Shown one piece after another: positions 4,101 through 7,100 of a DNA stretch of 64,000 nt. A program made the position numbers and the translations under genes. The stretch is from Salvelinus alpinus. Its lineage: Eukaryota; Chordata; Actinopteri; Salmoniformes; Salmonidae. The DNA lies in contig NC_092094.1 of assembly GCF_045679555.1 (NCBI RefSeq), forward strand, positions 32,978,655-33,042,654. The letters are read 5' to 3'. Under the pieces are notes generated by a model. It ran no database searches and was not told the DNA's origin. It saw nothing but the letters and a program-made list of their open reading frames with translations. Positions within the stretch are counted from its first letter, which is position 1; the number at the start of each line of letters is the position of its first letter.

Positions 4101-7100
4101 GGACCCATTACGCACGCAGGCAATGAGGCAGTGATCGCTGAGATCCTGGTTGAAGACAGCAGAGATGTATTTAGAGGGCAGGTTGGTCAGGATGATATCT
4201 AAGAGGGTGCCCATGGTTACAGATTTAGGGTTTACCTGGTAGGTTCCTTGATCATTTGTGTGAGATTGAGGGCATCTAGTTTAGATTGTAGGACGGCCGG
4301 GGTGTTGAGCATGTCCCAGTTTAGGTCACCTAACAGTACGAACTCTGAAGATAGATGGGGGGCAATCAATTCACATATGGTGTCCAGGGCACAGCTGGGG
4401 GCTGAAGGGGGTCTATAACAAGCGGCAACGGTGAGAGACTTGTTTCTGGAAAGGTGGATTTTTTAAAATAGAAGCTTGAATTGTTTGGGCACAGACCTGG
4501 ATAGTATGAAAGAACGATGCAGGCTATCTCTGCAGTAGATTGCAACTCCGCCCCTTTGGCAGTTCTATCTTGTCGGAAAATGTTATAGTTAGGGATGGAA
4601 ATTTCAGGATTTTTGGTGGCCTTCCAAAGCCAGGATTCAGACACGGCTAGGACATCCGGGTTGGCGGAGTGTGCTTAAGCAGTGAATAAAACAAACTTAG
4701 GGAAGAGGCTTCTAATGTTAATATGCATGAAACCAAGGCTTTTGCGGTTACAGAAGTCAACAAATGAGAGCGCCTGGGGAATTGGAGTGATGCTGGGGAC
4801 TGCAGGGCCTGGGTTAACCTCTACATCACCAGAGGAACACAGGAGGAGTAGGATAAGGGTACGGCTAAAGGCTATAAAAACTGGTCGTCTAGTGCGTTGG
4901 GGACAGAGAATAAAAGGATCAGATTTCTGGGCACGGAAGAATAGATTCAGGGCATAATGTACAGACAAGGGTATGGTAGGATGTGAGTACAGTGGAGGTA
5001 AACCTAGGTATTGAGTGATGATGAGAGAGGTTTTGTCTCTAGAGGCATGGTGTGTGTGGGGGAGTGGAACAAAAAAGCTAGCGAAAGCATATTGAACAGG
5101 GCTGGAGGTTCTACAGTGAAATAAGACAATAATCACTAACCAAAACAGCAATAGACAAGGCATATTGACATTAAGGAGAGGCATGTGTAGCCGATGATCA
5201 TAGGGTCCAGTGAGTAGCTAGGAGAGCTGGAGACGTGGCGATTCAGACAGCTGGCAGGCCGGGGCTAGCAGATGGGCCTCCGTTGCATCGGAAGAGCCTG
5301 TTGAAACCCCCTCGGACGGTTACGTCGGCAGACCAGTCGTGATGGATCGGCAGGGCTCCATGTTGGCAGTAAAGGGTCCAGGCCAATTGGCAAAAGAGGT
5401 ATTGTAGCCGAGGAATTGGCTGGTGGATCTCTTCAGGCTAGCCCGGGAGATGGGCCTAGTTCGAGGCTAACTCCAGGCTAACTGGTGCTTGCTTTGGGAC
5501 AGAGATGTTAGCCAGGAGTAGCCACTCGGATAGCAGCTAGCTAGCTGCGATGATCCAGTGTAAAGGTTCAGAGCTTGCGGTAGGAATTGTGAGATGAGGT
5601 AGAGAAAAAGCAGGCCGATATGCTCTGGGTTGATATCGCGCTGTGCAGACTAGCAGGAATTGACCGGGCTGAGGCTGGCTGATGTCCAAGATAACGGTGA
5701 TGACCACTAAACGGGCTAACTGACTACTATCTAGTTAGCTGGCTAGCTTCTGATGGGGGTTCCGGTTCTAAAGTATAAAAAAATAGCAGATCCATTCAGT
5801 CCGTAGATGGAAATTGAGATTAAAAATATAAAAAACATACAATAAATACACGGGACGGGACAAGACAAGACAAAACAGACGTCCGACTGCTACGCCATGT
5901 TGGTGGTTTTACTAGTGTTCTGGGGTGAGTTACTGTATATTTAGGGTCCATGGACATTCAGTTAATAGTTTGTACTGGTACTGTTTGTTCCCTTTTCTAT
6001 CGTTTAAGTATGTAAAAAAAATACATAAAGAAAGCAATAAAGAAAATAAAAAATAAAGGAAGAGAATAAGAAGGAGAATAAAGAAAAAATATAATTTTAA
6101 AAACAATGGTGCCGCCGGAGATGGCAGCATCGCAACTAGCTCTTAAGCAACTCTGCAGTATTTTGTTTGTTTATGTACTATTTTTTTAAGTTATTAGCTC
6201 AGGAATTGTTTTGTGTCATTAAATACAGCCAGGAAGAACTATTGGATATTAGAGCGGCGGTAACTCACCAGAACTTCCAGCATTACGACTTCCCTGGAGC
6301 GGATCCTTTGTTTGCTCTCCCAAGAGCAATCAAACTTATTCCAGAGGCTGACCCAAAACAACGCCAGCAAAGGAGAAGTACTCAAGGCGGTCTTCTGGTC
6401 CAACTCAGGAAGCGTGCACACCACCCACCGCTCCCAAGTATTTTACTCGCTAATGTCCAATCTCTCTCAAGGTGAGAGTTGCTTTTCAGAGGGACACCAT
6501 GGATTGTAACATACTCTGCTTCACGGAAACCTCTCTCTCTCTCTCTCTCTCTCTCTCTCTCTCTCTCTCTCTCTCTCTCTCTCTCTCTCTCTCTCTCTCT
6601 CTCTCTCTCTCTCTCTCTCTCTCTCTCTCTCTCTCTCTCTCTCTCTCTCTCTCTCTCTCTCTCTCTCTCTCTCTCTCTCTCTCTCTCTCTCTCTCTCTCT
6701 CTCTCTCTCTCTCTCTCTCTCTCTCTCTCTCTCTCTCTCAATTCAATTGGCTTTATTGGCATGGGAAACATGTGTTAACATTGCCAAAGCAAGTGAGGTA
6801 GGTAATATACAAAAGTCAAATAAACAATAAAAATGAACAGTAAACATTACACATACAGAAGTTTCAAAACAATAAAGACATTACAAATGTCATATTATAT
6901 ATATGCAGTGTTGTAACAATGTACAAATGGTTAGAGCACACAAGTTAAAATAAATAAACATAAATATGGGTTGTATTTACAGTGGTGTTTGTTCTTCACT
7001 GGTTGCCCTTTTCTTGTGGCAACAGGTCACAAATCTTGCTGCTGTGATGGCACACTGTGGAATTTCACCCAGTAGATATGGGAGTTTATCAAAATTGGAT

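Follow-up and report, generated by a model that had tools for sequence, protein, structure and literature searches.

The minus strand of the 64-kb window (the whole stretch of DNA analyzed here) contains a decaying LINE whose residual open frame carries an intact 2A-like octapeptide ahead of the endonuclease. Is this motif a ribosome-skipping site maintained by the LINE family as part of its protein, or is it an accident of one broken or recently inserted copy? The data favor the former, and we put at roughly 0.85 the probability that the predicted StopGo/2A site works in this single-ORF APE-type LINE, where it would separate the enzyme from a leader that looks signal- or membrane-like.

The window copy and its 2A-like motif

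Translation of positions 5184 to 4675 of the minus strand gives 169 codons plus a stop and bears out the frame proposed in the earlier note, i.e., in reading order, a hydrophobic N terminus, a 2A-like motif, and the start of an APE-type endonuclease. The surrounding stop-to-stop open frame comprises 180 codons (5217 to 4675); a frame of at least 180 codons arose in 28 of 2,000 dinucleotide shuffles of region 4675 to 5900, and the length of the frame by itself is weak evidence for coding. A scan of all six frames of the window found a single [DGCN][VI]ExNPGP sequence, DVEVNPGP at 4804 to 4827, and no further 2A-like octapeptide at up to two mismatches. By chance, the exact D(V/I)ExNPGP motif is expected about 5.5e-5 times per window.

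Within the minus-strand frame, skipping is predicted between the glycine encoded at 4807 to 4809 and the proline at 4804 to 4806. The core octapeptide is preceded by a leucine-rich context of 21 codons (4828 to 4890), with SG directly before the D, which by eye resembles L-rich motifs 2 and 6 as presented in the available part of PMC12846837. The predicted upstream product, 126 residues from the ATG at 5184 to NPG (4807 to 5184), begins with an ATG found at the corresponding place in full-length copies and includes a 16-residue segment at 5113 to 5160 that is signal-anchor-like by hydropathy. The predicted downstream product would start with a linker and the first endonuclease residues (4678 to 4803), the endonuclease start reading from an ATG at 4728. 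The frame is then cut early in the endonuclease by an in-frame stop at 4675 to 4677, 43 residues past the predicted skip site. Region 5185 to 5898 is the probable 5′ untranslated region, its start near 5898 being judged by eye.

The description of an intact D(V/I)ExNPGP motif within a decaying element also proved accurate, as stops and frame changes accumulate downstream of DVEVNPGP. Endonuclease remains were recognized by translation on the same strand at 4552 to 4674 (same frame, after the stop), 4466 to 4555 (shifted frame, stop at 4463 to 4465), and 4235 to 4450 (CYRPPS...LLGDLNWDM..., which alone matches Exo_endo_phos_2 with an E value of 0.0082, below the cut-off for that family); the end of the endonuclease and what follows lie in a third frame at 3831 to 4241, a piece that alone has no Pfam match. 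A Pfam scan of the broken frames of the window copy one by one gave no match. When the endonuclease pieces from the three frames were joined, with X placed at stops and frame changes, they matched Exo_endo_phos at 4e-7 (and Exo_endo_phos_2 at 1.7e-4, below that family's own cut-off), which, together with RVT_1 in other copies of the family, upholds the LINE identity. Inspection by eye suggests that the LINE-like sequence ends near 3830 and shows no reverse transcriptase beyond about that position. The window copy is a dead, truncated LINE fragment, with stops, frame changes, and no reverse transcriptase.

No second copy of the element was detected in the window by blastn, and tblastn gave weak matches elsewhere in it, the best to another LINE at 31548 to 31646. 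Relatives were sought in viral contigs, GTDB genomes, plasmids, and phages with no match, and solved-structure searches with the window pieces returned one chance-level SecE match or none. Pieces of other LINEs, endonuclease- or reverse transcriptase-like by eye and devoid of a 2A-like motif, occur on the plus strand at 8900 to 10400 and 31548 to 32788. The window also holds near-identical units about 1 kb apart at 6475 to 8908, where LINE-like frames (their nature judged by eye) adjoin a long (GA)n microsatellite, and tandem arrays of 69-base and ~25-base units at 53505 to 54701 and from 62407 onwards. At about 1000 to 3700 (minus strand), there are by eye exon-like pieces of what is presumably a gene resembling a seven-helix receptor. 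The LINE copy lies directly upstream of these pieces in the same orientation, perhaps within an intron of the receptor-like gene.

A dispersed single-ORF LINE family

The window's own genome (2.37 Gb, 928 contigs) was searched for related sequences. With the 169-residue translation as the query, 150 places were scored of 11,466 first-look candidates, all 150 with E values below 1e-76. Genome-wide, codons spelling D(V/I/M)ExNPGP were found at 5,345 sites, versus 7 for the reversed control; the sites read out comprised the first 30 on contig C1, all of which fell in the same LINE family, plus those in copies fetched otherwise. Sites in which the codon for the x residue does not start with G numbered 95 (control, 1) and by eye were mostly one base off the family codons, while the G-type octapeptide was about as frequent as its control (7 sites versus 3), and six of these sites are close to the letters of the family. 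On these counts, we rejected the idea that the genome contains further users of 2A. With a 29-base anchor taken from the endonuclease start, 6,633 sites were recovered genome-wide at up to three mismatches (control, 0). The family is dispersed and multicopy; among 92 copies picked by this anchor, 11 have family sequence that ends near the motif or after it.

Intact copies reveal the complete layout. Among ten copies with long frames, the first ATG of the frame is located 125 codons before the motif in nine and 131 in one; other frames of at least 80 codons upstream of the motif were looked for in ten loci, and none was common to all, similar ones being present in some. Three full-length copies were tested. 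Two of them, L042 and L043, keep a 1,096-codon ORF encoding the leader, the 2A motif, the endonuclease, and the reverse transcriptase, with products of 1,096 residues; the product of the third, L040, has 1,064. All three have Exo_endo_phos at residues 162 to 358 (E = 1.7e-7 in L042) and RVT_1 at 655 to 897 (E = 1.9e-33 in L042 to 5.7e-33). The L042 product also matches the solved human LINE-1 ORF2 and R2 chains in a sequence search; its NCBIfam scan gave weak reverse transcriptase matches far below cut-off, its PADLOC scan found nothing, and its first 132 residues scanned alone had no Pfam match. From the ORFs of the intact copies and their domain matches, the family is a single-ORF APE-type non-LTR retrotransposon (LINE) in which the leader, 2A motif, endonuclease, and reverse transcriptase are encoded together, dispersed in the genome and 5′ truncated in some copies.

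A number of individual copies and sites stand out. In L020 (motif at 1501), the motif is intact and the leucine-rich context has been lost by an in-frame deletion, so that this copy offers a ready-made negative control for assays of skipping. A rare x codon, TTT, recurs at four motif sites in ~8.47-kb steps on C3 (20045073 to 20070504) and at seven within 272 kb on C12 (55163211 to 55434876), suggesting local duplication of units containing a LINE copy. Two pairs of copies on C1, L010/L011 and L016/L027, look identical in the parts compared and lie ~0.1 and 4 Mb apart, as would result from either recent transposition or segmental duplication.

Motif conservation between subfamilies

Because copies picked by the motif cannot test its conservation, copies were picked by the endonuclease anchor. 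The matches listed, 100 of 6,633, all lay on contig C1 and were all exact, which favors young copies; 92 were fetched, up to 60.33 Mb on C1, where the motif list ends. Eighty-one extend upstream of the motif by 75 bases or more; it is intact in 75 of these (74 DVEVNPGP and one DVEANPGP), the other six having changed residues. The remaining 11 copies were dropped; eight of them end inside the motif or after it, and three reach it (two intact, one not), so that 77 of 84 are intact when these three shorter copies are counted. Copies in the window's genome that were picked without the motif thus mostly keep it. Assignment of the 81 copies to the nearest of three reference copies gave subfamilies A (11 copies), B (45), and C (25).

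The majority codons of the subfamilies were then compared pairwise (AB, AC, and BC). The octapeptide shows no nonsynonymous change between subfamilies, with 2, 2, and 3 synonymous changes, respectively. In the 29-codon 2A block, pN/pS is 0.11, 0.10, and 0.04, compared to 0.40, 0.68, and 0.49 in the rest of the leader, which has 30 to 62 nonsynonymous changes; the corresponding values are 0.41, 0.18, and 0.54 for the linker and 0.16, 0.00, and 0.13 for the endonuclease start, whose conservation is inflated, about half of this stretch overlapping the anchor. Of 141 eight-residue windows along the alignment, 24 are identical in A, B, and C, 19 of them in or around the 2A block and five at the anchor. 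The octapeptide ranks 6th of the 141, the higher-ranking windows overlapping the anchor by which the copies were picked, and 20th of 174 in a set picked by similarity. A second estimate started from 48 loci, 39 of which gave copies with sufficiently open frames; 27 of these copies (6 A, 9 B, and 12 C) were used, the other 12 rows, including the window copy, being left out by choice. Omega in these 27 copies, of which 9/9 B, 4/12 C, and 1/6 A members were motif picked, is 0.00 to 0.04 for the octapeptide, 0.06 to 0.25 for its context, 0.28 to 0.72 for the leader, 0.23 to 0.27 for the linker, and 0.14 to 0.23 for the endonuclease start. The alignment of copies called for in the earlier note therefore places the eight motif codons above the leader in conservation, and the outcome that would have spoken against function, i.e., NPGP codons no better kept than neutral positions, was not observed between A, B, and C. 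Because a sample selected independently of the motif keeps it in 75 of 81 copies and the subfamilies conserve it at the protein level, the data support the conclusion that a 2A-like site, in frame and placed between the hydrophobic leader and the endonuclease, belongs to the lineages of the family and not just to the window copy.

Inserted copies, in contrast to the family lineages, decay freely. The motif is broken in 12 of 47 copies picked by similarity (7 given as loci and 40 chosen across the ranking list), indicating that inserted copies are not protected. Selection on the window copy itself is accordingly rejected, its intact motif saying little by itself, and the evidence for constraint is the subfamily comparison. 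In the leader, changes specific to individual copies are close to neutral, with N/S per site of 1.04 in the similarity set and 0.76 in the anchor set. In the octapeptide, such changes are few and the samples disagree (13 N to 1 S in the similarity set versus 5 N to 5 S in the anchor set); variants common to at least three copies of the similarity set (0 N to 2 S) are too few to lean on.

These results bear on how else the motif might be explained. That it arose by chance in a decayed element fits the weakly unusual open frame (28 of 2,000 shuffles), but neither the expectation of 5.5e-5 per window nor, decisively, the count of 5,345 sites against 7; the genome-wide count refutes this explanation, to which we give practically no weight. 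Copy youth could likewise leave a motif intact although it is kept no better than neutral sequence, as many copies are near identical and their leader changes near neutral, yet youth would not account for eight codons accumulating 2 or 3 synonymous and no nonsynonymous differences between subfamilies while the rest of the leader accumulated 30 to 62 nonsynonymous ones, and we consider it very improbable. The most serious competitor, unlikely as we judge it, is that the NPGP stretch owes its conservation to being an ordinary piece of a LINE protein in which the leader is joined to the endonuclease, and not to skipping. In favor of this, conservation extends to the endonuclease start, and the valine at position x is outside the residues named as favored there in the available part of PMC12846837; against this, the residues conserved are the defining ones of 2A sites, including a G ahead of the D and an L-rich stretch that ends in SG, and the flanking leader and linker change far more. 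On balance, a working StopGo/2A site remains our preferred reading.

Predicted skipping and its precedents

The N-terminal segment is hydrophobic in all 16 aligned sequences, 15 of which begin with M, although many residues of this segment in subfamily B are different from those in A and C. Between 0 and 38 of 2,000 shuffles of the leader residues reached the observed hydropathy, in a sequence that is C/T rich and whose composition alone favors codons for L, F, S, and P. Structure models of the leader were poor (mean pLDDT, 40.7 and 48.2). A signal or anchor role for the leader is plausible from its sequence.

In the mechanism we propose, a ribosome would start at the conserved ATG of an intact copy and synthesize a leader of ~132 residues, with the hydrophobic signal- or anchor-like segment first and the leucine-rich 2A/StopGo peptide last. 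The latter would cause the ribosome to skip the Gly-Pro bond, setting the leader free before the endonuclease-reverse transcriptase is made as a protein of its own, starting with proline. With less confidence, the leader may enter or touch membranes, skipping keeping the enzyme cytosolic and able to reach the nucleus. One could go further and see in the 2A a targeting switch for the LINE, with the leader directed to the endoplasmic reticulum or membrane, the skipped enzyme to the nucleus, and the unskipped product to membranes, the leader perhaps being a selected stand-in for ORF1; we offer this tentatively and regard it as rather doubtful.

There are precedents for 2A sequences in LINEs. Odon et al. 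2013 (Mol Biol Evol 30:1955) reportedly found them in APE-type non-LTR retrotransposons of the clades Rex1, Crack, L2, L2A, CR1, and Ingi, part of which are said to have a single ORF, as does the family here; the likeness lies in an APE-type LINE with a 2A-like sequence. L1Tc, a non-LTR element of the distant host Trypanosoma cruzi, is similar in that a 2A reportedly (Heras et al. 2006) stands in frame with its proteins.

Skipping activity is likely by analogy with published work on the same core motif. An L-rich hexapeptide ending in (A/S/C)G before the D is one described StopGo class, and four of six motif classes, including the L-rich class 6, were assayed and all four found active, according to the available part of PMC12846837. 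The G before the D and the L-rich stretch ending in SG resemble, by eye, that described class, as far as it is set out there. Both marks of a 2A sequence, the core D(V/I)ExNPGP in frame and the L-rich upstream context (compared by eye), are found in the family. Sea urchin NOD-like receptors, in which a signal sequence joined to a 2A was shown (Roulston et al. 2016, PMC4981915), are alike in combining a signal-like N terminus with a 2A whose skipping decides the targeting of the rest. In the sea urchin, as covered by the part of that report available, the gene is a cellular immune gene whose 2A-like sequence, located at the N terminus or close to it, itself serves as the signal, whereas in the LINE family the motif follows the hydrophobic segment by ~100 residues, with the LINE enzyme as cargo. 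Zebrafish ZfL2-2, in the available part of PMC3880073, is comparable as a LINE without a separate ORF1 protein, although no 2A is mentioned there. No salmonid 2A LINE was found in the titles and abstracts of the open-access literature searched. Both 2A in APE-type LINEs and 2A combined with a signal sequence are already in print; what is new here is a well-sampled further example, not the mechanism.

With thousands of copies in three subfamilies, the conservation of a LINE 2A becomes measurable against neutral decay, and the intact frames of the family are usable for reporter tests. What merits testing is the conserved hydrophobic leader. The family poses the question of why a LINE with a single ORF retains a hydrophobic leader that changes fast and that, as predicted, it would then cut loose.
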